Origin: an uncultured Sphingomonadaceae bacterium
GTDB lineage: Bacteria > Pseudomonadota > Alphaproteobacteria > Sphingomonadales > Sphingomonadaceae
Direction: 5' to 3'
DNA: 64,000 nt
NCBI GenBank assembly: GCA_947493325.1
Contig: CANLQI010000001.1
Coordinates: 181,001-245,000 of the forward strand
Positions 4,466 to 62,220 of the stretch are shown here, in pieces. Within the stretch, counting starts at the first letter, position 1, and every line of letters begins with the position of its first letter. The notes beneath the pieces were generated by a model. That model searched no databases. It saw only the letters and a program-made list of their open reading frames with translations, and was not told the origin of the DNA. A program made the translations under genes and the position numbers.

Positions 4466-4469
4466 AAAA

Positions 4470-9243: not shown

Positions 9244-9323
9244 ATGAAACTATTCGCATAATAATATAGGGGTGCCAGTCCGGGCGATGGAGTGCCCGGA
9301 CCGGCATAAAGTCGAAGCGATGC

Positions 9324-10352
9324 TCAATAACCGCTTTCTTCGGCTTTTCCTGCGGCAGTCTGCGCAGGTGTCGGCGCGTTTGTAGCTTGGACGATCAGTT
9401 TTTTGGCTTCCGCAATCGCCGCGGCTTCGGTCATTTCATTCTTGCGGATCTGGTCGGCCATGGTCAGCAACTTACCGCTGATGATAGTGCCGGTCTGGGC
9501 TTCCTCTTCAACAGGAATGCCATTTTTCCGTGCGGCCACCATATCCCATGTGGCTCGCACAGCCTGCCAATAGGTGGCGGTATCTTGCCAGTAATCGTCC
9601 GCCGACTGCACGTTGTAATCGTCAAATTTTGTGTAGGTGTTGAGCACATATTCGCTGACAATCGGTTTCAGCTCGCCGTCCACCATGCCCATTTTGATAT
9701 TGTCCTGAAAATGAATCCAGCCATCGGGTGTGGGGGAGTGGCGGTTGATGGCATAATAGCGGTCATATACCGGATTGCGCACCGCATCACGCCGGGCGAG
9801 CGGACGCCAGGTCCAGTCGGAGCTCCAGCGGCGCGTACCGGCTTCGGTTTCCCATGTGCCAAGTCCTGCATAGCGCGGGCTGTCATCAACCTGATACACG
9901 GTCTGCGACCATTTTCCCTTGGCATTTTCGCGGCTGACCGGCTGCAATTCCCAGCGGTGGCGGTCCGAATAGACGAGCATGTTTTCAGGCTCATATTCCC
10001 AGTCCTGCCGCCAGTGTTTGATAATCATATTCTTGCCACCATGCTCCACGACGAGCAGGTGCTGCAGCATGATTTTATTGCCGCTATCCTCAATCACCCG
10101 GACGACTTCATTGCCGCCGGAAATCTTGCGTTCGCGCGGTTCATAGTCTGCGGTCCAGGGTGTCGATTCCTGCATATCGAAACGGACTTTATAATTGCCT
10201 GCCATCGCCAATATATCGGCGCGGTCGCGTTCGAATGCGCTTTGCTCTTCGCTGACAGCGGAACTAGCGATGCTCTGCTGCGCGATTGCCGGTGATAGCG
10301 TCATGGCGCTGGTCAGCAATACGGCGCCGAGTTTTACAGTGAATTTTGACAT
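9324..10352 (-). CDS. DUF6607-family exported protein, haem-receptor partner
   Basis: A 342-residue protein with a signal peptide (KLGAVLLTSAMTLSPAIAQQ). The mature part is rich in tryptophan and aromatic residues (WRQDWEYEP, SSDWTWRPLARRD), the pattern of the DUF6607 family, which is often found next to haem/haemoglobin TonB receptors. No enzyme motif is visible. It lies 30 bases after the receptor gene on the same strand and is probably under the same Fur-type control. A periplasmic or outer-membrane role in iron or haem acquisition is inferred from that context. Confidence 0.82.
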   Translation of the reverse strand: MSKFTVKLGAVLLTSAMTLSPAIAQQSIASSAVSEEQSAFERDRADILAMAGNYKVRFDMQESTPWTADYEPRERKISGGNEVVRVIEDSGNKIMLQHLLVVEHGGKNMIIKHWRQDWEYEPENMLVYSDRHRWELQPVSRENAKGKWSQTVYQVDDSPRYAGLGTWETEAGTRRWSSDWTWRPLARRDAVRNPVYDRYYAINRHSPTPDGWIHFQDNIKMGMVDGELKPIVSEYVLNTYTKFDDYNVQSADDYWQDTATYWQAVRATWDMVAARKNGIPVEEEAQTGTIISGKLLTMADQIRKNEMTEAAAIAEAKKLIVQATNAPTPAQTAAGKAEESGY

Positions 10353-10382
10353 GATATTTCTCCATCTGTCAGGGTGAATAGT

Positions 10383-12632: not shown

Positions 12633-12650
12633 ATTTGATCCAATTGCTAA

Positions 12651-12665
12651 TGAATATGATTCTCA
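12651..12665 (-). promoter_or_regulatory. Fur-like iron box upstream of the haem receptor
   Basis: Read on the minus strand the site is TGAGAATCATATTCA, a 7-1-7 imperfect palindrome close to the classical TGATAATNATTATCA core. It lies 19 bases before the receptor ATG, where a bound repressor would block transcription. Confidence 0.6.
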
Positions 12666-12778
12666 ATAGCTTTTAAATACAGGGATTGTATGCGGACACA
12701 AGAGGATTTTTCAATTATATATGAAGCTGTACGAAACCGACCGATGGGAAACCGGTTATATACCGTGAGTACGCCCGA

Positions 12779-13651
12779 CTATCTGGCTTCGCCCTCGATC
12801 AGGGTGCGTTTTGCGATAATCGCATCGCATAGATAGCGCATGAGTGTTTTGATGCGCGGCGTGTCTTTCAGGTCGGGATGGGTGAGGACCCACACGTCCT
12901 GACCCTGTATCGTTTTTGCGCCGGGCAGCCGCATCAAATCGGGTTCGGGGTCGGCCATATAACATGCCGTGCGCGCCATGCCTTGCCCGGCAAGCAGCGC
13001 CCTGTGCCGCATGGTAAGGTCGCTCATGGTATAGAGTGTTGGCGCTTTTGAATAAGGTGATGCGGCTTTCCACTCGTCCCGGCTCCACCTATAAGTGGCC
13101 TCTAGCCAGCGCCGTGCATCGGGGGGTGTTTCATCCAGATAGCCGCGCCGACAATAATGGCTGAGCGCATAGGGGAACAGGCACCGTCCCACAAGATGAT
13201 CGGGCGGTTTATTGGTACCACGTATCACCACATCGGCTTCTGACCGGTCCAGATTGGCAAACCCGTATGAAGAGATGATAGTCAGATCAATATCGGGATA
13301 AAGCTTGCAAAAAGCGTCTATCTCATTGAGCAGGAGGAACTGGCCTATGGCCTCTGGCAGCGATAATGTGATCGGTCCCTTATCGGCGGAGCCTGCCGCG
13401 CGCTGTTGCCGCTCTGCCCGCTGCGCAATCTCTTCCATGTCTTCGGCTGCGCCAACCATTTTCGCCCCGGCTTCAGTGGGGCGATAGCCGCTTGCAGACT
13501 GTTCGAATAAAATGCCTGCAGACCCGGCCTGCAGGGCGGCCAGGCGCCGGGAGACAGTACTGTGATTGATTCCCAATAGTTTGGCCGCGCCCCGCAAGCT
13601 GCCGCTGCGATGCAATGCGAGTATCAACCGATAGTCATCCCAATCATCCAT
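12779..13651 (-). CDS. LysR-family transcriptional regulator
   Basis: A 290-residue regulator with an N-terminal winged helix (GSLRGAAKLLGINHSTVSRRLAALQ, about residues 17-41) and a periplasmic-binding-protein-like effector domain starting near residue 92. It is divergent from the lipoprotein gene at 13753 and separated by about 100 bases that hold two related GGTGC...GCA motifs. LysR proteins usually control the divergent gene and themselves, so the lipoprotein is the likely target. The effector is unknown. Confidence 0.9.
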   Translation of the reverse strand: MDDWDDYRLILALHRSGSLRGAAKLLGINHSTVSRRLAALQAGSAGILFEQSASGYRPTEAGAKMVGAAEDMEEIAQRAERQQRAAGSADKGPITLSLPEAIGQFLLLNEIDAFCKLYPDIDLTIISSYGFANLDRSEADVVIRGTNKPPDHLVGRCLFPYALSHYCRRGYLDETPPDARRWLEATYRWSRDEWKAASPYSKAPTLYTMSDLTMRHRALLAGQGMARTACYMADPEPDLMRLPGAKTIQGQDVWVLTHPDLKDTPRIKTLMRYLCDAIIAKRTLIEGEAR

Positions 13652-13652
13652 C

Positions 13653-13733
13653 GGTGCAATATCGCACCACTAAGGCTATAAGTAAATCCACACACTGGCC
13701 AAAAATTCAACTTATATGGTGCCAATACGCAAC
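13653..13733. promoter_or_regulatory. Candidate LysR binding sites in the divergent intergenic region
   Basis: GGTGCAATATCGCACC at 13653-13668 is a near-perfect palindrome next to the LysR start. A related GGTGCCAATACGCAAC lies at 13718-13733 before the lipoprotein start. Two related sites in a divergent gap is the usual LysR arrangement; assignment to this regulator is inferred. Confidence 0.5.
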
Positions 13734-13752
13734 TTAACAATCGAGATAATCC

Positions 13753-14562
13753 ATGCATTTATTTCTCCGCAATTTCACGTCCCTGACTTTCCTGGCGGGG
13801 GCTTCCCTGTTTGCTGCAGCGTGCAGCGCGAGTCCCGGGACGCAGGCTGATGACCAGCCAGCGGCCGCGCAACCGGACACAGCCGGCGTGCTGCAACTTG
13901 ACTTTAAAAAGGGGCAGCTTCTCTCCTTTGTTGTACCGCAGACGCGTGAAGATGGTGATACGGCGCGCAAAGCCTATTATGACAAGGCGTTCCCCATAGC
14001 CGAAAAGCTTGGGTACAAACATGAAGCGACCTTGCGGGTGCGTGATAAGATCATCAGCGACTATGACCCGAGCGGATTTCTGCTCTATTCCTGGCCTGGC
14101 GCAGATGCATTGCGTGCGTTTGAAGCGGATCCCGCCTGGCCCGCTATCAAGGCTTCGCGTCCGGACGCCTGGTCGGAACTTAAAATATATACAGACGAGC
14201 TGGAGCAGGACCTGACGCTCAGTTTCGATCCGGCCAAGACATATACGGTCGTTGTCGCCTGGCTAAAGCCGGGCAAGGAAGCGGATTATGCGCGTTACCT
14301 GGATGGCATTACCGAAGCAGTCAATGCGGCAGGCGGGCGTTTTATCTACAAAATGAAAAACCCGGTGTTCGAAAACCATGCGTCATCGCCCGCCGCGCCG
14401 CAGCAGCTCACTTTTGTCGAATGGGATGATCTCGAAGGCTTTGCAAAGGTCCGTCAGAGTGATGCCTATAAGCAGAACCAGCAATATTTCGCGAGCGGCG
14501 TCGATCATGTCGAATTCTACCGGCTGGCCCTGTCTCAGCCGGCATTGTCTCAGGAAGAATAG
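13753..14562 (+). CDS. Lipoprotein with two tandem ferredoxin-like (DUF1330/ABM-like) domains
   Basis: A 269-residue protein with a signal sequence and lipobox (FAAACSAS), so probably lipid-anchored after processing at the cysteine near residue 24. The mature part seems to be two similar alpha/beta halves, one starting GQLLSFVVPQTREDGDTARKAYYDKAFPIAEKLG and the other TYTVVVAWLKPGKEADYARYLDGITEAVNAAGG. Each has the look of DUF1330 or ABM dimeric ferredoxin-like domains. No catalytic residues are obvious. It is divergent from the LysR gene, its probable regulator. The function is unknown. Confidence 0.75.
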   Translation: MHLFLRNFTSLTFLAGASLFAAACSASPGTQADDQPAAAQPDTAGVLQLDFKKGQLLSFVVPQTREDGDTARKAYYDKAFPIAEKLGYKHEATLRVRDKIISDYDPSGFLLYSWPGADALRAFEADPAWPAIKASRPDAWSELKIYTDELEQDLTLSFDPAKTYTVVVAWLKPGKEADYARYLDGITEAVNAAGGRFIYKMKNPVFENHASSPAAPQQLTFVEWDDLEGFAKVRQSDAYKQNQQYFASGVDHVEFYRLALSQPALSQEE

Positions 14563-14639
14563 CGCCGCCGGAAAATTATCCGCTATTTCTGTGCTATAGG
14601 ATAATGCGACTCTGCAATTTCAACAGGAGCGCATGACCT

Positions 14640-15746
14640 ATGCCCTTTTATAACGACCTGCGTCCCGACAGCGATCACAAGAAACGTGACTATGCGCTGA
14701 TTTTTCCCGGCATGAAAAAATCGGAGAAAAAGCGTGCGATCAACGGGATTCTGCGGCTGAAAGAAGGATTGGATAAAGAAATTTCTGCACGGCGGACGGA
14801 CAGTAACCTCTTGATCGCCAGCTGGAATATCAAGGAATTTGGGCATACCAAACAGCGTCTGCCCGAAGCCTATTTCTATATCGCAGAAGTCGTGTCGCGT
14901 TTTGATTTGGTGATTGTGCAGGAGATCAAGTCCACGCTCGATGATCTGCGTATATTGCTGCGTATATTGGGCGGGGACTGGGATTATATCGTCAATGACA
15001 TCACCAGCGGTGATGATGGCAATTCGGAACGTAGCGCGTATCTGTATAACAATAAACGCGTGAAGCTGTCGGGCACGGTGGGCGAGCTGGTTTTATGGAA
15101 AGATATTACCGACGGTAGCGCCATCAAGCAGCTCAAGCGCACGCCCTATCTTACGGGTTTCCGGGCGGGGTGGAAGGAATTTGCGCTGTTGAATGTGCAT
15201 CTGCAGCCCGGTGATGACAAGGACGAGGTCAAATACCGCAAGCAGGAAGTCAGCCTGATGATGCGGGCGCTGGCAGAGAAAATGGACGAAGGCTGGACCA
15301 AAAGCCTGGTCATCGCCGGGGATTTCAATTTTTACCGCAAAAAAGATGATGCTGCGATTTCCCTCATCGAGGATGCCGGCTTTTTCGAGATAGAGGGACT
15401 TGTCGGCGTCAACACCAATGCGGCGGACAAACATGCCTTTGACCGTATGTTCATTCGCAAGAATGAATATTTCAAAATCGTGCGCGATATTGAGGGAAAC
15501 CGGATAGGCGGTGTTTTCAACATATTCGACTACGTCTATCGTAAGGGACAGGCGCGGCGGTATAAAAAATATATCCTGGAAAGCTATGGCGGTGAAAAGG
15601 ACCTGGCTGGCGATGCCGATGCTCTGGAAAAACAATACCATGTCTATTGGAAGCGCAATCAGGTTTCGGACCATCTGCCAATCTGGTTCGAACTGGAAAT
15701 AGACAGCTCGCAGAAATTCCTGGAAGGAAAGCTGGAATCTTTTTGA
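14640..15746 (+). CDS. Endonuclease/exonuclease/phosphatase-family protein
   Basis: A 368-residue EEP-fold hydrolase without a signal peptide. The metal and catalytic motifs are SWNIKEFG (near 60), VIVQEIK (near 98), NVHLQPG, AGDFNF (near 224) and the terminal DHLP. These support Mg-dependent phosphodiesterase activity on nucleic acid or a phospho-ester; the substrate is not clear. AGGAG sits six bases before an out-of-frame ATG at 14633 that begins a six-codon frame (MTYALL, then TAA) overlapping this start, so translation may depend on re-initiation. The gene converges with the Crp/Fnr gene. Confidence 0.85.
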   Translation: MPFYNDLRPDSDHKKRDYALIFPGMKKSEKKRAINGILRLKEGLDKEISARRTDSNLLIASWNIKEFGHTKQRLPEAYFYIAEVVSRFDLVIVQEIKSTLDDLRILLRILGGDWDYIVNDITSGDDGNSERSAYLYNNKRVKLSGTVGELVLWKDITDGSAIKQLKRTPYLTGFRAGWKEFALLNVHLQPGDDKDEVKYRKQEVSLMMRALAEKMDEGWTKSLVIAGDFNFYRKKDDAAISLIEDAGFFEIEGLVGVNTNAADKHAFDRMFIRKNEYFKIVRDIEGNRIGGVFNIFDYVYRKGQARRYKKYILESYGGEKDLAGDADALEKQYHVYWKRNQVSDHLPIWFELEIDSSQKFLEGKLESF

Positions 15747-49019: not shown

Positions 49020-49637
49020 TCACCCCTGCGCAGGCATCAGCTCCATGTCGATTGCCTTGGCCGCCTTATACGCCTCGCGCTCTGACAGCCGCGCGGCATA
49101 GGCGGTGAAATTTTCCCGCTCGGGCAGCGTTTTGAACTGCGTACCCCAGATCACCTGCGACCCCATATAGACATCCGCCGCGGTAAACCGGTCGCCGCAG
49201 ACATATTGGCGGCTGCCCAGCATGCTATCAAGCACATCCACCATCTGGTCATAGCTGCCATATCCCGCCATGCGTGATTTTTCCTCGTCGGTGTGAAAGC
49301 CCAGGCTGTTATTGGTTATCGCCGCTTCCACCGGCCCCGCGCCATAGAACATCCAGCGATAATAATCCGCGCGTTCGCTGTCTTTCGGGGCAAATCCGCT
49401 ATCGGGAAACACATCGGCCAAATAGGCGCAGATGGCGGCGCATTCGGTCACGGTCCTGCCGTCATGCACAATGGCGGGGACTTTGCCCATCGGGTTGACG
49501 GCCAGATATTCAGGCGATTTGATATCGGCATATTCGATAATATGCTGCGCATACTCCGCGCCTGCCTCATGCAGTGCCCAGCGCGCAATCTGGCCGCGGG
49601 ACATGGGGTTGGTGTAAAACTGGATTGTGCCGGACAT
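49020..49637 (-). CDS. Glutathione S-transferase-family protein
   Basis: A 205-residue two-domain GST. The thioredoxin-like N-terminal half has FYTNPMSRGQIARWALHEAG (with Ser13 in the catalytic region), NPMGKVPAIV with the cis-proline, and TECAAICAYLAD. The helical half has RFTAADVYMGSQVIWG, the N-capping box. It would conjugate or reduce electrophiles with glutathione. The AGGAGA before the ATG at 49637 fixes the start; the track adds 26 residues. Confidence 0.9.
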   Translation of the reverse strand: MSGTIQFYTNPMSRGQIARWALHEAGAEYAQHIIEYADIKSPEYLAVNPMGKVPAIVHDGRTVTECAAICAYLADVFPDSGFAPKDSERADYYRWMFYGAGPVEAAITNNSLGFHTDEEKSRMAGYGSYDQMVDVLDSMLGSRQYVCGDRFTAADVYMGSQVIWGTQFKTLPERENFTAYAARLSEREAYKAAKAIDMELMPAQG

Positions 49638-49678
49638 GATTCTCTCCTGATGGTGAAAGGAGGATATAACATCGCCGC

Positions 49679-50065
49679 CTAAAATTCGAAAACCCAGATT
49701 CCGATCAGCAGGCATAGCCCGCCAAGCCCCATAAAGGCCGCGATCAGGCGCAGGTTGACACCCTTGACCGGTTCGGCGTCATGGGCATCGAGCCGTTCCT
49801 GCACGGCGCATCCGCGTTTTTGCGCGGCGTAGATGATGAATATGCCCACCGCCATGAATATGCTCGCAATCGCCTTCGGCGCCCAGGCGGGTTCCCATTT
49901 GCCGAACAGGGCGTTGAAACCGATGCCGATACCGATCGCGGCGAGACCCGTGCGCATCCAGCCCGCAAATGTGCGCTCGTTTGCCATCATGGTCCGGTCC
50001 TCGGCCCAGTCGGTACGGTCCTGCGCGAGCTGCTGGCTGTCTTTTCTGTCGTTGGTATCGCCCAT
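49679..50065 (-). CDS. DUF202-family membrane protein
   Basis: A 128-residue protein with a polar N-terminus (DWAEDRTMMANERTFAGWMRTGLAAIGIGIGFNALF, typical of DUF202/YidH) and three transmembrane helices. No function is established for the family. It is on the same strand as the GST gene, 41 bases before it. Confidence 0.88.
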   Translation of the reverse strand: MGDTNDRKDSQQLAQDRTDWAEDRTMMANERTFAGWMRTGLAAIGIGIGFNALFGKWEPAWAPKAIASIFMAVGIFIIYAAQKRGCAVQERLDAHDAEPVKGVNLRLIAAFMGLGGLCLLIGIWVFEF

Positions 50066-50522
50066 ATGTTCCCCTGTGATCTGACGCGTATGGTTCTACA
50101 ACGTACCATATCCGGCCCTGTTCCGAATCGTTTCTATCCGTACCCCGTCTTATCCGTACTCCGGCATTACAGTACCCCGGCCTTTCCTTCCGTCATCCTG
50201 ACCCCATCCCGTCATCCTGAACTTGTTTCAGGATCCATCGTGCAGTTACAGGACAGTTTTCGCCGCTTGTGCGCAATGCTTGCCGTTAACGCAGTGCCAC
50301 ATTCCCAAAACAGCGATCAGTTTCGAAATGGATCCTGAGACAAGTTCAGGATGACGGGTGGAGTTCATGCATAACGTACACACGGAAATTTATAGCTTCC
50401 TGCACCGGGAGCAGAGTGAGAATGACGGCCGCACACCGCAGTGCGCTAACTATGCCATGCCCCTTTTGCATGCGGGCAAATTGGTTTAGCATCCGCTGCA
50501 GCCATATCATGACGGGGATTTG
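50066..50522. repeat. Repeat-filled gap before the patatin gene
   Basis: An R4 long-form element runs 50211-50356: GTCATCCTGAACTTGTTTCAGGATCC at one end, GATCCTGAGACAAGTTCAGGATGAC at the other, with CAGTTACAGGACAGTTTTCGCCGCTTGTG inside. A homologous copy is at 57199-57364. Upstream, TCCGTACTCCGGCATTAC and TCGTTTCTATCCGTACC repeat TCCGTA. The remainder (50360-50522) contains the gene leader. Confidence 0.75.
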
Positions 50523-52355
50523 ATGAACGACACGCCGCAAAATGACCGCGATGATGCAGCGGCCCCCGGGACCGGGGGCTTTGGCTGGCTGCGCGATGTA
50601 TTGCTGGGCGATATCGGCGAAGATGCGCTGGCCGCGCTCGCCGCTGCGGCGCAAAAGCGCGTTATTCCGGGCGGCAGCAACCTGGTCGAACAGGGCCATG
50701 CTGCGAGCGCCATTTTCTTTGTGCAGACGGGCCGCTTTCGCGTTCTGATCGAAAAAGCGGATGGTACGCAGCATATGGTGGCTGAGGTCAACGCGGGTGA
50801 ACCGGTGGGGGAGCTGGCGTTTTTTGGCGGCGGCACACGCACCGCAACGGTGCAGGCTGCGCGCGATTCCACGGTGTTGGCACTGGGGTGTGAGGCCTAT
50901 GACAAAGTGGCGAGGGCGCATCCCGGAATCGTGTCGGCATTGCTGGGGGCGGTGTCGCGGCGGCTGGCCGAAGTGACGGCAAAAACCCCGCAGATGGAGG
51001 CACAAGCCGCGCGGGTGATTGCTGTGCTGCCCGCGGGAAACAGCCAGTATCCCACAGATTTTGTCGAAACCCTTGCGGCGGCGGTGCGCACATCCACAGG
51101 CGCGGATCAGGCCGTCACGACAATCGATGCATATGGCGGCGCGCGCAGCACGGCAGATTACGAACAATGGCTGCAGGCAGAGGAAGCGAAGGGCGGCTAT
51201 ATCCTGATCGATGCGCGCGGCGACAGCGATTGGGGGCAGCTTGTGTGCCGCAATGCCGATGCGCTGGTGCTGGTCGCCGATGCTGCTGCGGATAATGGTT
51301 TGTCCGATCTTGAAAGCGCCGCATTCGATTGGGTGTGGCCGCAAAACCGCACTTTGGTCATGCTGCGCGCGGCATCGGCGCAGGCAATCGCCGGAACGCA
51401 GCATTGGCGCGCCCCGCGCGATCCGCATCTGCACGTGCATCTGGCGCTGGACCGTCCGGTGCAAATGGACCGGCTCGCGCGCTTCCTGACGGGCCGTGCG
51501 GTCGGGCTGGTGCTCGCAGGCGGGGGCGCGCTGGGCTGCGCGCATCTGGGCGTGATTCAGGGGCTGCAGGATGCCGGCGTGCCAATCGATTATATTGGCG
51601 GGACCAGCGCGGGTGCGGCGATGGGCGGCGCGATTGCGCAGGGCAATAGCCCGGCCGAAACGCTGGACCAGGTAGAGGCGATGTTTATCGGGGCCAAGGC
51701 GATGAAACGGCTCACCGTGCCGGTGCACTCGCTGCTCGACCCGGCGGTGTTCGATGCCGAACTGAAAGCGCGCTACAGCAATGCCGATATCACTGATCAG
51801 CCGCTGCCGTTCTTTGCGATCTCCACCAATCTTTCGACCAACAATCTGCACATCCACCGCGACGGCCCGTTGTGGGAGGCTGTGCGCGCGTCGGGATCAC
51901 TGCCGACGATATTGCCGCCGTTTATTGATGGCGATGGCAATATATTGGTGGATGGCGGCGTGCTTGACAATATTCCGGTGATCGCGATGCGCGCGCGCAA
52001 GGCGGGGCCGAATATCGTGGTTGCGCTGGGCGATGCCAGCCAGCCGTGGCGGGTGGACGCGGACTATGGGGACTTGCGCAGCCGGGGTGCGCTCTTGCGC
52101 GATGTGGCGCTACGCCGCAGGGCTCCCAATGATTTTCCGAACCTGATCGAAGTGATGCAGCGCTCCATGGTGGTTTCCAGCCGCATTGCATCGCGCGCGA
52201 TGCTGCGCGAGTGTGACATACTGTTGACCCCGCCGATCCTGGAGGGAATGCAAATCCTCCACTGGCACCGCGGCCGCGCACAGGCGGAAGCCGCAGCAGA
52301 ATATGTCGCGCAGCAGGTGGAGGAAAATGCCGATTTGCGCGCGTTGATAGGGTGA
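50523..52355 (+). CDS. Patatin-like phospholipase with an N-terminal cyclic-nucleotide-binding domain
   Basis: A 610-residue NTE-like protein. Residues about 25-150 form a cNMP-binding fold with the binding cassette GEPVGELAFFGGGTRTATV intact (Glu and Arg present). A linker domain follows, then patatin (from about 320): GLVLAGGGALGCAHLG, the serine in GGTSAGAA, and the catalytic aspartate in DGGVLDNIP. The enzyme would cleave membrane phospholipids, perhaps under cAMP or cGMP control. The track start is TTG; ATG at 50523 with GGGGA before it is better. Confidence 0.9.
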   Translation: MNDTPQNDRDDAAAPGTGGFGWLRDVLLGDIGEDALAALAAAAQKRVIPGGSNLVEQGHAASAIFFVQTGRFRVLIEKADGTQHMVAEVNAGEPVGELAFFGGGTRTATVQAARDSTVLALGCEAYDKVARAHPGIVSALLGAVSRRLAEVTAKTPQMEAQAARVIAVLPAGNSQYPTDFVETLAAAVRTSTGADQAVTTIDAYGGARSTADYEQWLQAEEAKGGYILIDARGDSDWGQLVCRNADALVLVADAAADNGLSDLESAAFDWVWPQNRTLVMLRAASAQAIAGTQHWRAPRDPHLHVHLALDRPVQMDRLARFLTGRAVGLVLAGGGALGCAHLGVIQGLQDAGVPIDYIGGTSAGAAMGGAIAQGNSPAETLDQVEAMFIGAKAMKRLTVPVHSLLDPAVFDAELKARYSNADITDQPLPFFAISTNLSTNNLHIHRDGPLWEAVRASGSLPTILPPFIDGDGNILVDGGVLDNIPVIAMRARKAGPNIVVALGDASQPWRVDADYGDLRSRGALLRDVALRRRAPNDFPNLIEVMQRSMVVSSRIASRAMLRECDILLTPPILEGMQILHWHRGRAQAEAAAEYVAQQVEENADLRALIG

Positions 52356-52380
52356 GGGGTGAATGTACCGGGGATACTCC

Positions 52381-52675
52381 AAATCCTCCCTGTCGCGAAG
52401 CGATGGGGAGGGGGACCGCTTGGCGCAGCCAAGTGGTGGAGGGGTGGGTGCAGTGTAAATACAAAACCTGCTTATTGCCGCTCTCACCCCTCCACCACTC
52501 GTTGCGCGAGCGGTCCCCCTCCCCGAAACTAAAGTTTCAGGGAGGATCTGGATGCATCATCACCGTTTCGCGTGGGTTCCGAGTTGCGACCAGCAACTCG
52601 GCAGCGCATGACCATGCGTCGGCCGTTAGGCCGAACCCATTTGGAGGCGGATGCGTAGCATCTCGCCGTGAAACC
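52381..52675. repeat. Palindromic composite repeat R3, copy b
   Basis: AAATCCTCCCTGTCGCGAAGCGATGGGGAGGGGGACCGC, then the hairpin CTTGGCGCAGCCAAG, a mirrored CCCCTCCACCACTCG...GCGGTCCCCCTCCCC, and finally GGCCGAACCCATTTGGAGGCGG...CTCGCCGTGAAA. It shares its inner block with copies c and d. Confidence 0.8.
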
Positions 52676-52804: not shown

Positions 52805-53647
52805 ATGAACGATCAAAGTGCGATGAACGTTACGGCAGGCTTTAATATCCCCGATCCCGCCGACATCGAATCGGTCAGAGGCAAGGTGCCTGACACCGAA
52901 TGGGCGATGCGCTGTGATCTGGCCGCCACCTACCGGCTGTGTGCGCTGCATGGCTGGACCGATCTGGTCTTTACGCATATTTCCGCGCGCCTGCCCGATG
53001 AACCGAATGACAAGGGTGAGATGGAGGAACGGTTCCTGATTAACCCATATGGTGTGATGTTTGACGAAATGACGGCGTCGGCGCTGGTGAAAATCGATAT
53101 CCATGGCAATATCTGTCAGGACACACCCTATTTCATCAATCCGGCGGGCTTTACAATCCACAGCGCGGTGCATGCCGCGCGCGCGGATGCGGGTTGTGTC
53201 ATCCATGTCCACACCCCCTATGGCATCGCCGTGTCGGTGCAGAAAAAGGGCCTGCGCCGCTATACGCAATTTTCGATGCAGGTCTATAATGACCTTGCCT
53301 ATCATGACTATGAAGGCGTTGCGCTGGAGCTTGAGGAGCGGGAGCGGATTGTCGCCGATATGGGGGATAAAAACCTGTTGATGCTGCGCAACCACGGCAC
53401 ACTTAGCGTGGGGCCGAACTGCGCGATTGCGTTTCTGCGCATGTATTTCTTGGAAAATGCCTGCAAGACGCAGATCCTGGCGCAGGCCGCGGGCGGTGAG
53501 GAACATCTGCATGAGGAACCCGCCGAAATGGCGGACACCGTCGCGGGCCAATCGGCGGCGGCATTCATGCCGGGCATGGGCGACAATCTGGTCTGGCCCG
53601 GCCTGATGCGCAAACTCGCGCGGAGCAACCCGGGGCATGATCATTAG
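52805..53647 (+). CDS. Class II aldolase/adducin-family protein
   Basis: A 280-residue zinc-dependent aldolase-fold protein. The metal ligands are His in VIHVHTPYG (about residues 137-141) and the later NHGTLSVG histidine; FTHISARLP and NPYGVMFDEMT match the N-terminal part of the family. Such proteins act as fuculose- or ribulose-phosphate aldolases or epimerases, or as non-enzymatic adducin-like proteins; the substrate is not clear. GAGG precedes the ATG. No partner genes stand beside it. Confidence 0.88.
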   Translation: MNDQSAMNVTAGFNIPDPADIESVRGKVPDTEWAMRCDLAATYRLCALHGWTDLVFTHISARLPDEPNDKGEMEERFLINPYGVMFDEMTASALVKIDIHGNICQDTPYFINPAGFTIHSAVHAARADAGCVIHVHTPYGIAVSVQKKGLRRYTQFSMQVYNDLAYHDYEGVALELEERERIVADMGDKNLLMLRNHGTLSVGPNCAIAFLRMYFLENACKTQILAQAAGGEEHLHEEPAEMADTVAGQSAAAFMPGMGDNLVWPGLMRKLARSNPGHDH

Positions 53648-54305
53648 AGGGCTGGATTGAGGCGGGCCAAAGCGCTGATCGAAGCGGTTGCGCCATATCG
53701 GGCCATCAAAGCGCCGTACGCGGCTCCATCCGTACTCCGGCGAAGGCCGGGGTCATAGCGGCAGGCACAACCGCAGTAATGGATCCCGGCCTCAAGCAAA
53801 GCTTGAGTTTATCCTGAGCGACTGCTTTCCAAGCAGTCAGCCGAAGGGCCGGGATACCGTAACGCCGGGATACTGTGATATGGCTCCGCTTTTCTTTGAT
53901 TTCACGGCTAGTTCGCTTGCGCATCCGCCTCCAAATGGGTTCCGGCCAATAAGGCCGGGCGCGCAGTCGCGCTTGCGGTGCTGCTGGCCGCAGCACCGGG
54001 ATTTCGCGAAACGATGGCTGGTTTCAAATCCTCCCTGTGCCGCAGGCATGGGGAGGGGGACCGCTTGGCGCAGCCAAGTGGTGGAGGGGTGAAAGCGGCA
54101 ATAGGCAGGTTTTGTATTTACACTGCACCTACCCCTCCACCACTCGCCGCGCGAGCGGTCCCCCTCCCCATCGCTTCGCGACAGGGAGGATAAATTTTTT
54201 GATTTCACGGCGAGATGCTGAAACCCACCCCGCATCCTGAACCAGAACCCCCGCGTATATTTCACCTTGCGCCGCGCCGCTGTTTGCGCCAGTTTCCGTT
54301 TCGAT
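53648..54305. repeat. Repeat-filled gap: GGCAGGCACA-type block and R3 copy c
   Basis: Between 53735 and 53800 is GGCAGGCACAACCGCAGTAATGGATCCCGGCCT, shared with 55707-55752. R3 copy c spans 53896-54220 with both ends (TTTGATTTCACGGC / GATTTCACGGCGAGATGCTG). From 54221 to 54305 lies the leader of the sigma factor gene, without a clear promoter or ribosome binding site. Confidence 0.75.
53896..54220. repeat. Palindromic composite repeat R3, copy c
   Basis: The longest regular copy. Inside, GGAGGGGGACCGCTTGGCGCAGCCAAGTGGTGGAGGGGTG and CACCTACCCCTCCACCACTCGCCGCGCGAGCGGTCCCCCTCC are inverted arms about 40 bases long. Confidence 0.82.
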
Positions 54306-54887
54306 ATGGCAACGCAAAACCCCAAGCCCGGTCAGGCCGCAGAGCTGCGCGATCACCTTTCGCATCTGCTCGCGCGTGTGGGGGCGGGCGACCGCAGCGC
54401 GCTGAAATCCGTATATGATCTCACCCATGCGAAACTTTTTGGCGTTTGCCTGCGTATCTTGAATGACGATGCATTGGCGGAGGATGCGCTGCAGGACAGC
54501 TATATCAAGGTGTGGCGCAGCGCAGACCGGTTCGATGCGGGCCGGGCCAGTCCGATCACCTGGCTCGCGGCCATCGCGCGCAATACGGCGATCGACCGGC
54601 GGCGCGCGCTGGGCACGCGTGAATATGTGAGCGACGATATACTGGCGGACGCGCCGTCAAATGAAACCGATGCGCTGACGCGGCTGGAGGAAGGCGAAAA
54701 AGCCGACGCGCTCCGCAAATGCCTCGGCACGCTGGAGGAGAAACAGAGGAACGTCATCCGCACGGCGTTTTTCGAAGGCGACAGTTACCGCGAGCTGGCA
54801 GAGCGGATGGGCACGCCGCTGGGGACGGTAAAAAGCTGGGTCAGGCGCGGATTAAAGCGGTTAAAGGACTGCATGGAAGATGAGTGA
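54306..54887 (+). CDS. ECF-type RNA polymerase sigma factor
   Basis: A 193-residue sigma-70-family protein with region 2 (LFGVCLRILNDDALAEDALQDSYIKVWRSADRF, and the ARASPITWLAAIARNTAIDRRR end) and region 4 (RTAFFEGDSYRELAERMGTPLGTVKSWVRRGLKRLK). It would direct RNA polymerase to a stress promoter. It resembles SigK/RpoE-like ECF proteins. The next gene is its anti-sigma factor, overlapping by eight bases. The start at 54306 is chosen for family length; no good ribosome binding site precedes it. Confidence 0.93.
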   Translation: MATQNPKPGQAAELRDHLSHLLARVGAGDRSALKSVYDLTHAKLFGVCLRILNDDALAEDALQDSYIKVWRSADRFDAGRASPITWLAAIARNTAIDRRRALGTREYVSDDILADAPSNETDALTRLEEGEKADALRKCLGTLEEKQRNVIRTAFFEGDSYRELAERMGTPLGTVKSWVRRGLKRLKDCMEDE

Positions 54888-55680
54888 AGAGCAAGAATTT
54901 ACGGGCGGGGACGATGCGGCGCTGGCGGCGGAGCTGGTGCTCGGCCTGCTCGAAGGCGAAGATAAAGCCGCGGCGCTGCGGCGGCAGCTGGCCGACCCGC
55001 AATTCGCCGCCGAAGTGGACCGGTGGCATGCGCGGCTCGACCCGCTCTATCATGAATTTGCCGAAGCCGCGCCCGGCGCGGGCGTGTGGGATGGCATCGA
55101 GCGGCGGCTGGGTGCAGAGGCGCCGGCGGCTGTCCCCGCCGATATGGCGGCGGGCAATGCTGGCAACGCTTCCATTGACCCTGGCAATGACCCCGGCAAT
55201 GACCCCGGCAATAACAATGCCGTGGCGCAGATGAAACGCTGGCGTTTCGGTGCGCTGGCATCGGGCGCGCTGGCGGCCTGTCTGGCGCTCGCGCTGCTGC
55301 TTAATCCGGCGCAGGTCGATACTCCCGTGACGGTCCCTGACACGCCGCAGGTGGCGGTAGCGCAGCTGACCGGGCCGATCGAGGGGCTCGTGCTGGCGGT
55401 GTCCTATAATGCCGATACGGCTGAGATGCGGGTCGATGTCGACGGCATGCCGGAAACCGAAACCGAACCGGAAATCTGGATCCGCGCCGGTGACGGTACG
55501 GTGCGCTCGCTGGGTCAGATCGGCCGCGACGGCGTCAGCGAAATGGTACTGCTGCAGGGCGACCGCGCGCTGCTCACCGGGGACGCGCAGCTGTTCCTGA
55601 CGATGGAACCGCCGTCCGAAACCCCGCACGAAATCCCCAGCGGCGAACCCGTGGCGACGGGGCGGATAAGCTTTATCTGA
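54880..55680 (+). CDS. RskA-like anti-sigma factor
   Basis: A 266-residue single-pass membrane protein. The N-terminal domain (LAAELVLGLLEGEDKAAALRRQLADPQFAAEVDRWHARL) should bind the sigma factor; no zinc-binding HxxxCxxC motif is present, as usual for RskA. One helix (FGALASGALAACLALALLL, about residues 124-142) follows, then a periplasmic RskA domain (PIEGLVLAVSYNADTAEMRV). Before the helix is a GNDPGNDPGN tandem. It overlaps the sigma gene, so both are made together. Release of sigma would need proteolysis. Confidence 0.9.
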   Translation: MSEEQEFTGGDDAALAAELVLGLLEGEDKAAALRRQLADPQFAAEVDRWHARLDPLYHEFAEAAPGAGVWDGIERRLGAEAPAAVPADMAAGNAGNASIDPGNDPGNDPGNNNAVAQMKRWRFGALASGALAACLALALLLNPAQVDTPVTVPDTPQVAVAQLTGPIEGLVLAVSYNADTAEMRVDVDGMPETETEPEIWIRAGDGTVRSLGQIGRDGVSEMVLLQGDRALLTGDAQLFLTMEPPSETPHEIPSGEPVATGRISFI

Positions 55681-56493
55681 GATATTTTATACTTTGGCAT
55701 TGCCTGGGGTCCAGGGCGGCAGGCACAGCCGCAGTAATGGATCCCGGCCTGCGCCGGGATACGCGAAGGCGCGGGATACTGTGTCGCCAGAACATATGTG
55801 TGGCCGCGTCTTTGGCTGGTTGCACTGGATTGACGTCCAGGCAGTATTCCTGCGAACGCAGGGATCCAGGGCGGCGTAGTGGGACGGCAGCATCTACCGC
55901 CCTGGGCTCCTGCTTTCGCATGAGCACGGGGAAGGCATGCACCCAGCCCGTCATTCCCGCCCTCTGACTGACTGCTGGTCACGGCACCGGGATTTCGTGA
56001 GACGACAGCGACATTATCAAATCCTCCCTGTGCCGCAGGCATGGGGAGGGGGACCATTTTGCTGTCGCAAAACGGTCCCCCTCCCCGAAACTAAAGTTTC
56101 AGGGAGGATGAATCTCTTTGATTTCACGGCGAGATGCTGCGCATCCGCCTCCAAATGGGTTCGGCCTAACCGGCCGGCGTGCGGTCGCACGCTGCCGAGT
56201 TGCTGGGCGCAACTCGGGAATTTCGCCATAAAGAGAAGTAGAGTGCAACTGCGATTAAACGAAAGGTATTGCATGGCGAAATCCCGAACGGCGACCAGCC
56301 GTTCGCAAAGGCCGACTGGCCGCCGGCCGGTTAGGCCGAACCCCATCGGAGGCGTGAACGAAGCGAACTGGCTGTGAGATCAAAAGACTCCTCCCAAAAA
56401 ATAAATTTTCCGTCCCCTGCATCCGCTCGGCGTTTCACGCCGTAGCTTTTCACATATCCACCCCCCGGATATGGAAATTTAGGAGATACCGAT
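55681..56493. repeat. Repeat-filled gap between anti-sigma and fasciclin genes
   Basis: First a GGCAGGCACA-type block (55707-55752) and GATCCCGGCCTGCGCCGGGAT hairpin; then TTCCTGCGAACGCAGGGATCCAGGGCGGCGTAG and CTCCTGCTTTCGCATGAG near 55848-55925; then R3 copy d (56019-56386). The last 100 bases lead into the fasciclin gene, with AGGAGATACCGAT before its ATG. No gene is supported. Confidence 0.75.
56019..56386. repeat. Palindromic composite repeat R3, copy d
   Basis: The segments match copies a-c but are rearranged: AAATCCTCCCTGTGCCGCAGGCATGGGGAGGGGGACC and its inverse first, then TTTGATTTCACGGCGAGATGCTGCGC ... GGCCGGCGTGCGG, GAGTTGCTGGGCGCAACTC, and at the end GGCCGAACCCCATCGGAGGCG...GTGAGATCAAA. 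Confidence 0.8.
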
Positions 56494-57051
56494 ATGAAAA
56501 AACTACGTTCAACAAAATTCGCCATTGCCCTTGCCGCCTCTGCCGCGCTGATGGGCGGGACGGCGGCCACGGCGGGTCATCATAAAGAAAAGGCGGCGAC
56601 CCAGAATATTGTCGAGAAAGCCGCTGCCACGGATGATTTCTCCACATTGGTTGCTGCGGTAACCGCTGCGGACCTTGCTGGTACATTATCGGGTGATGGC
56701 CCGTTCACGGTGTTCGCGCCCACGAATGACGCCTTTGCGGCGCTGCCCGATGGCACGGTCGAAACGCTGCTCAAGCCCGAGAATAAAGGGCAGCTGCAAT
56801 CCGTGCTGACGTACCACGTCGTTGCCGGCCGTTTAAAAGCCAAATATCTGATCGGTCTGGTCAAGAAATCAAAAAGCGGCGTGGCCAGAATTGGCACAGT
56901 GCAGGGCGGCATACTCAAAGCAACCGTGGACAGCCATGGCGCACTGATCCTCACCGATGAGCAGGGCCGGTCGTCCAAAGTGGTGATGGCCGATGTGAAC
57001 CAGTCAAATGGCGTGATCCATGCTATCGATGCGGTGGTACTCCCGGGTTAA
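56494..57051 (+). CDS. Fasciclin-domain secreted protein
   Basis: A 185-residue protein with a signal peptide (FAIALAASAALMGGTAATAG) and one FAS1 domain. FTVFAPTNDAFAALPDGTVETLL and the terminal NGVIHAIDAVVLPG are its two conserved motifs (H1 and H2), with YHVVAG between. FAS1 proteins act in adhesion or stress protection and are often encoded near an ECF sigma/anti-sigma pair. AGGAGATACCGAT precedes the ATG. An excellent terminator follows. Confidence 0.92.
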   Translation: MKKLRSTKFAIALAASAALMGGTAATAGHHKEKAATQNIVEKAAATDDFSTLVAAVTAADLAGTLSGDGPFTVFAPTNDAFAALPDGTVETLLKPENKGQLQSVLTYHVVAGRLKAKYLIGLVKKSKSGVARIGTVQGGILKATVDSHGALILTDEQGRSSKVVMADVNQSNGVIHAIDAVVLPG

Positions 57052-57364: not shown

Positions 57365-57410
57365 GATTGGGCCAGGATGACGGAAGGAGAGGTCGCGGCT
57401 CCGCTTTTCT

Positions 57411-57481
57411 TTGATTTCACAGCGAGATGCTAGGCATCCGCCTCCAAATGGGTTCGGCCTAACCGCCCGGCGTGTGGCCGC
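57411..57481. repeat. Palindromic composite repeat R3, partial copy e
   Basis: Only one end is present: TTTGATTTCACAGCGAGATGCTAGGCATCCGCCTCCAAATGGGTTCGGCCTAACCG. The element breaks off near 57481, where the gene transfer agent tail remnant begins. Confidence 0.75.
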
Positions 57482-57514
57482 GCGCTATCGGTTCCGGGCA
57501 ATGCCAGCGCGCTG

Positions 57515-58213
57515 TTGTGCGACACACGAAACCATATCGATGTGCTGCTGCTCAACAATGATATGCATTTGCGCGGCGCGGCGGCGGCGGAGCTTGCGAA
57601 CGGGGCCAATCTTGCAGTTGTTGGCGAAGAAGTCCTGCAATTCACCCGCGCCGAATATATCGCGCCGCGTACGTTTCGCCTGTCCGGCCTGTGGCGCGGG
57701 CGGGGCGGCACGGAATATGCGGTGGCGGGCCATGGCGCGGATGAGGATTTTGTGCTGCTGGACAATGCCCTGCTGCCAGTGCTTGAAACCGGCGCGCAGA
57801 CGGTGCCGCCCGCATTTGCAGCGATTGGCAGGGGCGATGCGGATGCCGTGATAGCTGAGGCGCCTTCGGATATTCGCGCGTTTGAACCATTTTCACCTGT
57901 GCATATGCGTGCGGACTGGTCGGGGGCGGACAATCTGCAGATATCGTGGGTGCGCCGCAGCCGCAGCGGCACGGCATGGCGCGACCATGTTGATGTGCCA
58001 CTGGGCGAGGAAAGCGAATGCTACAGCGTTGTCATGATGTCCGATGCGGACCAAATCCTGTTGCGGGCAGATGTGGATGCGCCCCGAATCGCAATCGATC
58101 CCGCCATGATCCAGTCGGCCCGCATGCAGGGCGTGGCCGATGTGCAAGTCACAGTCCGGCAAAAAGGGCAGTTTACGGTGTCCCGGCCCACGTATTTATC
58201 TGTTCCGCTGTGA
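57515..58213 (+). pseudogene. C-terminal remnant of a gene transfer agent/phage tail host-specificity protein
   Basis: The 232 residues match only the end of the large gene transfer agent tail protein (RcGTA gp15-like, TIM-barrel 'megatron'). LLNNDMHLRGAAAAELANGANLAVVGEEVLQFTRAEYI...FRLSGLWRGRGGTEYAVAGHGADEDFVLLDNALL is the characteristic part. The full protein is over 1,000 residues. The frame is open back to 57434, and the first part is coded by repeat R3 (in-frame TAG at 57431); the tail-like sequence starts near 57485. TTG is the only start-like codon. DUF2793 follows, as in sphingomonad gene transfer agents. Confidence 0.65.
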
Positions 58214-58289
58214 TGCGCGGATATCCGCTGCGCAGAATTTTCCCTGAAACAAAATAAATATAATAAAATAACATGAAAGTGAGCACCAT

Positions 58290-58751
58290 ATGACTCTAGA
58301 AACCGATTCGGCCACCGACCGCCATGGCTTTCCGCTGCTGCATGCAGGGCAGGCGCAAAAGGAAATCTTTCACAATGAAGCGCTGGTGGCGCTGGACCAT
58401 ATTATTATGCCGGTTGTTGAAACCGTTGCCGATGACCCGGACAGCCTGACGCCGGAAGCGGGCCAGAGCTGGCTTGTATCGAGCAGTGCACCCGGCGCAT
58501 GGGCGGGCGAAGCGGGCAAAATCGCAAGCTGGACCATAAATGGTTGGAGAATATGGGAACCAAAGCCGGGTACATACGTTTTCGATCGGCAGGCTGACTG
58601 TTTCCGTATATATCAGGGAAGCAGCTGGTTTGTACCATTGGCTCTATCGGCACCAACAGGAGGAACAGTCATTGATGTAGAAGCAAGGGATATGCTGGTT
58701 TCCATCATGGAAATATTGCGGAATTTTCGTTTGATACCTGCAAATATATAA
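58290..58751 (+). CDS. DUF2793-family protein (gene transfer agent/phage-associated)
   Basis: A 153-residue protein. HAGQAQKEIFHNEALVALDHIIMPVVETV is the DUF2793 signature, followed by a beta-rich PGAWAGEAGKIASWTINGWRIWEPKPG. In sphingomonads it is often the last gene after the tail host-specificity gene of the gene transfer agent; here only the C-terminal fragment of that partner survives upstream. This gene looks intact. Its role, perhaps as a tail fibre component or glycan-binding module, is unknown. The stop is followed by an AT-rich region and the OmpA promoter. Confidence 0.8.
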   Translation: MTLETDSATDRHGFPLLHAGQAQKEIFHNEALVALDHIIMPVVETVADDPDSLTPEAGQSWLVSSSAPGAWAGEAGKIASWTINGWRIWEPKPGTYVFDRQADCFRIYQGSSWFVPLALSAPTGGTVIDVEARDMLVSIMEILRNFRLIPANI

Positions 58752-58949: not shown

Positions 58950-60053
58950 ATGCGGAAGTTAGTCATTGGACTGGCACTTGCATCCACAGCTTTGACCGTA
59001 CCTGCACATGCACGTGACGGTGAGTGGTATGTTGGTGTAGACGGCGGTGTTACGCTCGTTGAAGATATGGAACTCGATATCGGCGTCAATTCAAACGCTG
59101 CATCTATCGATAATGAATACGGCTATGACTTTGGTGGTCTGGTTGGTTACGACTTCGGCGGTTTTCGTCTGGAAACAGAAGTAAGCTACCGTGAAGCTGA
59201 TCCCGACACATTCTCAACCAACCTGCCGATAACCGGTATTGGTACCGGCACGTTTGACTCAAACGGCGATACGAATGTTCTTTCATTCATGCTGAACGGT
59301 CTGCTTGACTTTGGCGACGATGATGGCGTTCAGGGTTTCGTTGGTGGCGGTGTTGGTATCGCACGTGTTGACGTTGAAAACATTGTTGCGGCACCTGCAT
59401 TCCTTGACGACTCTGACACAGGTTTCGCGTGGCAGGCTCTTGCCGGCGTACGCGCTCCACTCAGCGATAGCTGGGACGTTGGTCTGAAATACCGTTTCTT
59501 CAACGCAGACAATGTTGATCTTGTGAGCAGCTTCGGTGATGATGTTGAAGGACGTTTCCGTTCACACTCTATCCTTGGTAGCCTGATCTACAACTTCGGC
59601 GGTGCACCTGATCCGGTTGTTCCGGCTCCGGTACCTGCGCCTGCACCAGCACCTGCGCCTGTACCGGTACCTCCACCGGCTCCTGTGGCAGCGCCATGTG
59701 CAACTGGCCCTTACATTGTGTTCTTTGATTTCGACCAGTCGAACATTACGCCAGAAGCAGCAACCATTCTGGACAACGCCGTATCGGCCTATGCCAACGA
59801 ATCATGCCGGAACGTTCCGATCATGCTCGCAGGTCACACCGATACTTCAGGCTCAGCGTCTTATAACGTTGGTCTGTCACAGCGCCGGAACGAATCTGTT
59901 CGTGCATATCTGGAATCACGCAGCGTTCCATCCGCGGCAATCTCTTCCGAAGCATTTGGTGAAACCCAGCTTCGTGTTGATACCGCTGACGGTGTTCGCG
60001 AACTTCAAAACCGCCGTGTGGAAATCACATACGGTCCAGGTTCTGGAATGTAA
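58950..60053 (+). CDS. OmpA-family outer-membrane protein
   Basis: A 367-residue protein: signal peptide (LVIGLALASTALTVPAHA), an eight-strand OmpA/OprF-like barrel (about 22-215), a VPAPVPAPAPAPAP hinge (about 227-250), and an OmpA C-terminal peptidoglycan-binding domain (IVFFDFDQSNITPEAATILDNAV, LAGHTDTSGSASYNVGLSQRRNESV, with the Asp and Arg of the DAP site). It tethers the outer membrane to the wall. Codon use favours GGT, GTT and CGT, unlike the GC-rich neighbours, as in very highly expressed genes. A terminator follows. Confidence 0.95.
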   Translation: MRKLVIGLALASTALTVPAHARDGEWYVGVDGGVTLVEDMELDIGVNSNAASIDNEYGYDFGGLVGYDFGGFRLETEVSYREADPDTFSTNLPITGIGTGTFDSNGDTNVLSFMLNGLLDFGDDDGVQGFVGGGVGIARVDVENIVAAPAFLDDSDTGFAWQALAGVRAPLSDSWDVGLKYRFFNADNVDLVSSFGDDVEGRFRSHSILGSLIYNFGGAPDPVVPAPVPAPAPAPAPVPVPPPAPVAAPCATGPYIVFFDFDQSNITPEAATILDNAVSAYANESCRNVPIMLAGHTDTSGSASYNVGLSQRRNESVRAYLESRSVPSAAISSEAFGETQLRVDTADGVRELQNRRVEITYGPGSGM

Positions 60054-60310: not shown

Positions 60311-61612
60311 ATGAAAATCACGATGATTGGCACGGGCTATGTGGGACTTGTTTCGGGGGCGTGTTTTTCCGATTTTGGCCATGACGTTATCTGTGTTGAC
60401 AAGGACGCGGGCAAAATTGCCGCTCTGGAACGCGGCGAGATGCCGATATACGAACCTGGCCTCAAAAACCTGGTTGCGCGCAATGTAGAGGCGGGCCGGC
60501 TGAACTTCACAACTGAAATCGCAGATGCGGTGGCAGATGCCGATGCGATTTTTATTGCAGTGGGGACACCGTCACGCCGCGGCGACGGACATGCGGACCT
60601 CAGCTATGTCTATGCCGCAGCGGGCGAGATTGCCGACAATCTTTCAAAATCCGCTGTCGTTGTGAATAAATCGACCGTGCCAGTGGGCACAGGCGATGAG
60701 GTGGAACGCATCATGCGCGAACATGCACCGGACCTGGACATTGCGGTTGTTTCCAATCCTGAATTCCTGCGCGAAGGCGCGGCGATTGGCGATTTCAAAC
60801 GGCCGGACCGGATTGTGATCGGGACCGAGGGTGCGAAAGCGCGCGAAGTGATGCACGAAATCTATCGGCCGCTGTTTCTCAATGAATCGCCTTTGCTCTT
60901 TACGGCGCGGCGCACGGCAGAGCTTATCAAATATGCGGCCAATGCGTTTTTGGCGACCAAGATTACCTTCATCAATGAAATTGCCGATCTTTGCGAAAAA
61001 GTGGGGGCGGATGTGCAGGACGTGTCACGCGGCATTGGCCTTGATAACCGGATCGGGCCGAAATTCCTGCATGCAGGCCCCGGCTATGGTGGTTCATGTT
61101 TTCCCAAGGATACGCTCGCGCTGATGAAAACCGCGCAGGACCATGATAGCCCGGTGCGCATTGTCGAGGCGGTGGTACAGGTCAACGATAACCGCAAACG
61201 CGCGATGGGCCGCAAGGTGATTGATGCCATGGGCGGCGAAGTACGCGGCAAAAAAGTCGCGCTGCTGGGCCTGACCTTCAAACCCAATACCGATGACATG
61301 CGCGATGCCCCCTCGATCGCAATTGTCCAGGCGCTGCAGGATGCCGGCGCGAAAGTCAGCGCCTATGACCCCGAGGGCATGGAGGTCGCCGCGGAAATCC
61401 TGCCGGATGTGGAGATGGCGCAAGACGCCTATGCAGCCGCCGATGGCGCAGATGCTCTGGTTATCGTAACCGAATGGGATATTTTCCGCGCGCTCGACAT
61501 GCGCCGCATAGCGTCATCCATGCATGCCACAACACTCGTCGACCTGCGCAATATCTATCAGGCCGGCGACATGGAAGGGCTGGGCTTCAGCTACACCAGC
61601 GTGGGACGGTAA
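60311..61612 (+). CDS. ugd: UDP-glucose 6-dehydrogenase
   Basis: This enzyme oxidises UDP-glucose to UDP-glucuronate with two NAD+, feeding exopolysaccharide or lipopolysaccharide sugars. Landmarks are the N-terminal NAD site MIGTGYVGLVSGACFSDFGHDV, KSTVPVGTGDEV, the catalytic cysteine in GPGYGGSCFPKD (about residue 263), and the C-terminal LGLTFKPNTDDMRDAPS. At 433 residues it is normal length. GGCGGA precedes the ATG. No polysaccharide genes lie beside it. Confidence 0.95.
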   Translation: MKITMIGTGYVGLVSGACFSDFGHDVICVDKDAGKIAALERGEMPIYEPGLKNLVARNVEAGRLNFTTEIADAVADADAIFIAVGTPSRRGDGHADLSYVYAAAGEIADNLSKSAVVVNKSTVPVGTGDEVERIMREHAPDLDIAVVSNPEFLREGAAIGDFKRPDRIVIGTEGAKAREVMHEIYRPLFLNESPLLFTARRTAELIKYAANAFLATKITFINEIADLCEKVGADVQDVSRGIGLDNRIGPKFLHAGPGYGGSCFPKDTLALMKTAQDHDSPVRIVEAVVQVNDNRKRAMGRKVIDAMGGEVRGKKVALLGLTFKPNTDDMRDAPSIAIVQALQDAGAKVSAYDPEGMEVAAEILPDVEMAQDAYAAADGADALVIVTEWDIFRALDMRRIASSMHATTLVDLRNIYQAGDMEGLGFSYTSVGR

Positions 61613-61638
61613 TATAGTCCTGTTATAGGGAGTTAAAC

Positions 61639-62220
61639 ATGCCAAATATATCTTTCAAAGCCGCGGCACTGGTGTCGGTGCTGTCGCTTTGTGCCTGTGA
61701 TAACCAGCGGATCGAACCGCCTGTGCAGGAGGCGGAATCACAAGTTGCACGTGCCCTGTTGTTTCAGGCAAATGGTTCTGCAGCGGGTGAAGCAATTGTG
61801 GCGCAGGGTGACGGCGAACTGCTGTTGACTGTAAATGTGGAAAATATGGAAGCGGGAACGCGCGGCGTGCATATTCATGGCAAAGGCATGTGCGATGCGC
61901 CCGATTTCAAGGGCGCGGGCGGGCACTGGAACCCCACAAATGCCGAGCATGGATTGGAAAATCCGGCGGGCGCGCATGCCGGTGATTTGCCGAACCTTGT
62001 GATTGGCGAAGATGGCACAGGCACGCTTGAGGCGCGCATCAAGGCCGGTGTATTGCAGGATGGCGCATTGCAGGATGGTGATGTCACGCTGATGGACGCG
62101 GATGGCGCATCATTCATGGTCCATGCCGGCCCCGATGATATGGTCACGGACCCCAGCGGCGATAGCGGCAGCCGCATTGCCTGCGGCGTATTTGCCATCA
62201 GCACGGGCGGCGTGAACTGA
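61639..62220 (+). CDS. sodC: Cu/Zn superoxide dismutase, lipoprotein
   Basis: A 193-residue SodC. A lipobox LCAC (Cys20) after the hydrophobic start suggests a lipid-anchored envelope protein. Metal ligands are HIHG, GGHWNPTNAEHG and the late FMVHAGPDD; AHAGDLPN fits the usual core, and two cysteines (GMCDAPDF and RIACGVF) can form the structural disulfide. It dismutates superoxide in the periplasm. AGGGAG precedes the ATG. It begins 27 bases after ugd on the same strand. Confidence 0.92.
   Translation: MPNISFKAAALVSVLSLCACDNQRIEPPVQEAESQVARALLFQANGSAAGEAIVAQGDGELLLTVNVENMEAGTRGVHIHGKGMCDAPDFKGAGGHWNPTNAEHGLENPAGAHAGDLPNLVIGEDGTGTLEARIKAGVLQDGALQDGDVTLMDADGASFMVHAGPDDMVTDPSGDSGSRIACGVFAISTGGVN

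Follow-up and report, generated by a model that had tools for sequence, protein, structure and literature searches.

The C-terminal fragment of gp15 and the DUF2793 gene that stand side by side in the right part of the window (the whole stretch of 64,000 nucleotides analysed here) are very probably the right-hand stump, left in place, of a degraded RcGTA-like cluster that once occupied this very site. A gene transfer agent (GTA) is a virus-like machine for sharing DNA, and the stump alone would be ordinary gene decay, one more decayed GTA. In three genomes of one genus, the window's own included, one and the same locus holds a complete cluster, the 5' half of a cluster and a 3' stump, respectively.

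The stop-to-stop frame at 57434-58213 is open over 259 codons with no internal stop, and positions 57476-58213 in it represent the final ~249 residues of the GTA tail protein gp15, the 'megatron' of RcGTA. In fact, 57476-58210 can be aligned at 51% identity (E value 5e-69) to residues 536-783 of gp15 in G001, a genome of the same genus (CANMFE01, uncultured Sphingomonadaceae bacterium) where the protein has 784 residues; the alignment is extendable leftward to 57476 from the boundary given in Table 1. The Pfam family PF23666 (Rcc01698_C) is matched at 1e-21 over profile positions 18-98 of 98, and the tail protein family PHROG 4271 at 2.8e-39. Moreover, the fragment used as a profile finds the RcGTA megatron in PDB 6tba/6teh (residues 1080-1288 of 1304, 1.8e-27) and also matches the C-terminus of the phage megatron 8gtc. 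Judged by these alignments, the homology to gp15 is far beyond chance, and the original prediction, which had named a gp15-type GTA tail C-terminus, is borne out. Compared with the RcGTA gp15 (rcc01698), the C-terminal ~210-250 residues are homologous, with the core RGRxGTE...WxRRxR...E.E.Y in common, whereas the window fragment is devoid of all N-terminal tail domains, the start site and the particle genes. More specifically, it is not a full-length gp15, which in the family has ~700-800 aa and includes N-terminal tail-hub domains, as its frame has 259 codons against 787 in G001, and the N-terminal part was not found anywhere in the genome. A search of IMG/VR gave no near relative of the fragment, the best match having 38% identity.

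At the corresponding site of G001 there is a complete GTA cluster, in the order glutathione S-transferase (GST), patatin, terminase ... capsid ... gp15, DUF2793, OmpA, UDP-glucose dehydrogenase and SodC. The window keeps GST, patatin, DUF2793, OmpA, UDP-glucose dehydrogenase and SodC in this same order (Table 1), and its flanks are the same as those in both G001 and G002, a sister species in the same genus, that is, the fragment stands at the orthologous position between conserved flanks. Locus, flanks and the gp15-DUF2793-ompA order are thus held in common with the RcGTA-like cluster of sphingomonads as seen in G001, while the window is without terminase through gp15 codon ~540, for which ~5 kb (52.4-57.4 kb) of unrelated genes and repeats stand in. 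The gene blocks on both sides have stayed where they were, which excludes the alternative raised earlier, namely a transfer of this end to a site away from the cluster. Among the genes of the replaced segment, the aldolase-like gene is not an ortholog of any G001 or G002 gene, because it has only ~39% matches there (52% in other genera). The ECF sigma, anti-sigma and fasciclin genes, at 54267-57051, occupy the former place of the GTA cluster; such trios also occur together elsewhere in G004 and G018, genomes of two other genera, and none was found in G001 or G002. The position of the left breakpoint cannot be fixed, since nothing in G001 or G002 corresponds to the segment from the patatin gene to the repeat arm R3. 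Inverted repeats of a second family (ATCCTCCCTG...GGGGAGGGGGACC) lie at 52380-52545, 54028-54191 and 56021-56110; together with those of the first (R2/R3) they stand between the gene groups that replace the cluster.

Table 1. Features of the former GTA site in the window, with the deletions of relatives referred to in the text
Feature	Position	Strand	Evidence or remark
Glutathione S-transferase-like gene, outer left flank of ancestral GTA site	49020..49715	-	Ortholog of the gene left of the G001 patatin, ~80%
Patatin-like/cNMP-binding gene, left flank	50520..52355	+	74% to the G001 gene just upstream of the GTA cluster
Class II aldolase-like gene (name by eye), between left flank and remnant	52805..53647	+	ORF
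ECF sigma factor-like and anti-sigma-like pair (names by eye), replaced segment	54267..55680	+	ORFs
R2, complete ~282-nt palindromic repeat of the R3 family	56109..56390	.	Inverted arms; fold -161 kcal/mol, z -12
Fasciclin-domain gene, replaced segment	56494..57051	+	PF02469, 1.2e-31
R3, single arm of palindromic repeat, abuts gp15 fragment	57408..57486	+	91% to R2 over 79 nt
gp15 (Rcc01698/megatron) C-terminal remnant	57487..58213	+	51% to G001 gp15 536-783; PF23666; PDB 6tba/6teh
DUF2793 gene, GTA tail-fibre-like, full length (153 aa)	58290..58751	+	PF10983, 1.2e-21; 69% to G001 DUF2793
OmpA-like outer membrane protein, right flank	58950..60053	+	71% to the gene behind DUF2793 in G001; PF00691, PF13505
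UDP-glucose dehydrogenase-like and SodC-like genes (names by eye), right flank	60311..62220	+	89% and 66% to G001, same order
Complementary deletion in G002, 5' half of cluster	G002:C2:333001-352000, 5979-14742		Joined to DUF2793
Recurrent scar, interior of GTA missing	G149 3561-4359; G098; G099; G103; G174		terL codon ~157 (HSH|A) / DUF2793 codon ~19

The remainder of the cluster was sought in the whole assembly to which the window belongs (8 contigs, 100% complete). The model GTA_TIM (PF13547) has no match in the window, and none of 201 family genomes reaches its cut-off, those with intact clusters included; because of this, G001 proteins were used as search markers in place of Pfam. GTA_TIM in fact marks sphingomonad GTAs poorly, as complete clusters that have a TIM-like gp12 fusion gene stay below its cut-off. 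No GTA gene was found in the genome with terL, portal, capsid, gp6 and gp13, nor with gp12/TIM-like, the gp15 N-terminus, TerS, gp8 and protease; one weak match is left, of 58 residues with 43% identity and an E value of 2e-5, from the gp15-N/TerS portion of the query. The genome has no RcGTA-like head-tail cluster, in which terL, portal, protease, capsid and tail genes would stand together. The check for a second gp15 copy that had been proposed earlier was run and found none, which argues for deletion rather than duplication, and the proposal that a deletion or insertion removed the rest of the cluster is supported, in the form of a deletion or replacement; the complete cluster of G001 and the absence of the tested genes speak for it. 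The fragment might also be imagined as a partial copy that duplication or transposition had brought in from a cluster at another site, as it abuts a repeat arm and its upstream neighbours differ from those of G001. However, there is no second copy or other cluster gene in the assembly and the DUF2793-ompA-UGDH-SodC order downstream is exactly the native one of G001, so that this origin is refuted for the present assembly and hardly credible altogether.

As to the origin of the stump, we infer an ancestor with the gene order still seen in G001: patatin, then an entire cluster from small terminase to gp15, and behind it DUF2793, ompA and UDP-glucose dehydrogenase. A rearrangement would have taken out the part from terminase to about gp15 codon 540 (~19 kb in G001 coordinates). 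In the gap there are now the ~5 kb with the aldolase-like gene, the sigma/anti-sigma/fasciclin group and the palindromic repeats, and the right junction abuts one arm of a palindromic repeat. The loss is probably recent on the genus scale; no close strain with an intact cluster was found by which it could be dated directly.

The repeats at this junction deserve separate consideration. R2 is a near-perfect palindrome of 282 nt, and its family, for which no Rfam family was found, has 37 matches in the genome, both whole (~280 nt) and half copies. R3 and gp15 join at about 57486/57487, with no more than a few bases between the end of R3 and the first codon that has gp15 homology. This closeness would be accounted for by homologous recombination between two palindromic repeat copies, one left of the cluster and one inserted in gp15, and R3-related elements are indeed present in G001, immediately behind patatin and also at two sites within the GTA cluster, between its genes. 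Nevertheless we regard such recombination as doubtful, since the G001 gp15 has no repeat inside, R3 is one arm only, and the junction of the deletion in G002 has no repeat, which means that repeats are not required. In the original prediction R3 was called a palindromic repeat, which is right for its family as seen in R2, though R3 itself is one arm and not the whole palindrome; a deletion at R3 likewise describes the junction correctly, with R3 as its cause being unproven. The join was further described as in frame. No stop interrupts it, but the earliest start codon of the frame is a TTG at 57515, already inside the gp15 part, and the repeat therefore adds open frame and no predicted protein; 'in frame' here is the absence of a stop codon, not a made fusion protein.

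A point against reading the fragment as a stump is that it bears no stop, no frameshift and no relaxed selection, as a functional piece would. In a codon model of four taxa, omega is 0.05 on the window branch of the gp15 fragment against 0.12 in the background, and a neutral period on this branch costs 3 log units at a dS of 0.1 and 7 at 0.2. The gp15 stumps of G004 and G018 show the same lack of relaxation, and the omega of DUF2793 is ~0.13. Such unrelaxed stumps mean either that a function persists or that the losses are young. If selection had kept the gp15 C-terminus and DUF2793 for a new role such as binding to cell surfaces, one would understand the open frame, the low omega on the window branch, the full length of DUF2793 and its omega, the retention of the pair in two other genera, and the DUF2793 still kept by 14 of the 34 surveyed genomes that have neither gp15C nor terL. 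Against such a role, which we consider improbable, stands the want of a start site or promoter: the + strand between 56400 and 59000 showed no promoter-like site, and by eye no convincing ribosome site precedes the TTG at 57515 or the next ATG. Without N-terminus, start site and promoter the gp15 fragment is probably not translated, and the earlier suggestion that the pair may be expressed is left unsupported. Moreover, the sister G002 does without gp15 and the N-terminus of DUF2793, and deletions that keep only the 5' half occur too. The N-terminal fragments of terL (~157 codons) in seven GTA-minus relatives served as a control; they have neither the Walker B motif nor the nuclease, yet all seven are equally unrelaxed, and a neutral tail of dS 0.05 on them brings a summed loss of 35 log units. 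It is unlikely that a terL stump is useful in all seven, and it is therefore simpler to take the remnants still visible as young. Recency thus suffices, and explains the unrelaxed gp15 fragment better than a new function does; the stump would then be without function, and the new surface role that had been proposed for the gp15C/DUF2793 pair is possible but unsupported.

DUF2793 has been reported to be the tail fibre of RcGTA and to co-evolve with the GTA genes (PMC10883770). Compared with this tail fibre (PF10983), the window protein is full length and in its native place, directly downstream of the gp15 fragment as in G001, but it is an orphan with no tail to attach to. The gene is intact, as had been predicted, and the order of gp15 followed by DUF2793, which had been given as usual for sphingomonads, is indeed that of G001, G112 and G119. 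The protein weakly matches chain S of 8gtc, an entry that also contains a megatron. As no particle genes are left, its incorporation in a GTA particle is not expected, and it may still be read, as a tail-fibre part without a particle.

Among 201 family genomes that were surveyed, gp15C and terL are both present in 139, gp15C only in 22, terL only in 6 and neither in 34, and therefore loss and partial loss of GTA clusters are common. About half of the Sphingomonadales members have been reported to conserve GTA genes, to a varying degree (PMC9836097); relative to partial GTA clusters in Alphaproteobacteria, the window's pair is a decay product of the same kind, and it differs by the palindromic repeat arm at its junction and by the complementary deletion in a sister species. 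More specifically, G002 has kept the cluster from terminase to gp6 codon 95 and then continues directly with DUF2793 codon 42. Parallel cases are found in G004 and G018, where gp15 stumps from about codons 653 and 609 are followed by DUF2793 and ompA, and in the genera of these two the genomes G112 and G119 have an entire cluster between the flanks of those stumps. Older losses with nothing left to see exist as well: 20 of the 201 genomes have neither terL, gp15C nor DUF2793. A bias toward keeping the gp15 end is not established, with 3 true short gp15 stumps against up to 6 genomes that have terL and no gp15C. G117, a candidate stump by frame length, was rejected, as its gp15 is frameshifted and its tail genes are present; at 4172-6860 (reverse strand) the frameshift divides gp15, leaving 622 aa on one side and the C-terminal portion on the other, a case of early decay. 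In G205, at 9600-9640, the capsid sequence ...KRV is joined in frame to AGQAQKE of DUF2793, another partial loss, and the join likely shares GGGCAGG, consistent with a microhomology deletion.

A more interesting lead than the window's stump is a recurrent scar in relatives, whose sites the window's deletion does not use. In five of the fetched GTA-minus loci that keep DUF2793, terL breaks off at codon ~157, after ...GPQHSH(A), and is continued by DUF2793 from codon ~19 (...AGQAQKE). A 37-base junction pattern was found in 26 of 401 family genomes, spread over 15 genera, and the reversed control pattern gave no match; a further sample from the order added four scar genomes, all of the same family, and none in other families. 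The pattern is of fixed length, by which scars of other lengths would be missed, and the five loci found without it are all of that length. The register is constant among the scars, and the crossover point appears to vary by a few bases. In the terL tree, the fragments of scar genomes group with the intact terL of their own genus, and parsimony on the terL-fragment tree gives 21 changes for 24 scar rows; by this tree, the cluster would have been replaced by an in-register terL::DUF2793 scar in ~30 genomes on about 20 separate occasions. Transfer of a scar allele between genera is disfavoured, as no donor-like tract lies beside the scar and a single scar clade is rejected (p-AU 1e-64). Selection for a scar fusion protein is also rejected, neither frame being conserved and several scars having no standard start just upstream of DUF2793. 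No shared microhomology at the scars is obvious by eye, and a site-specific enzyme is one option for the mechanism.

From an evolutionary point of view, a possible reading, which we offer tentatively, is that GTA loss in this family is repeated and, where traceable, recent, that a sequence-specific terL::DUF2793 deletion is a frequent route to it, and that GTA-minus lineages are common and short-lived. Models predict invasion by GTA-minus cells (PMC6209664), and repeated loss, if true, bears on the persistence of GTAs that lyse their cells. A dated and well-placed stump together with a recurrent scar would make the turnover of GTA clusters measurable, in terms of loss frequency, mechanism and the persistence of the losers. 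Finally, one contig of a further relative (G154:C28) ends at 25418 in DUF2793 codon ~20, which is the DUF2793 side of the recurrent scar, and this break perhaps comes from mixed intact and scar populations.
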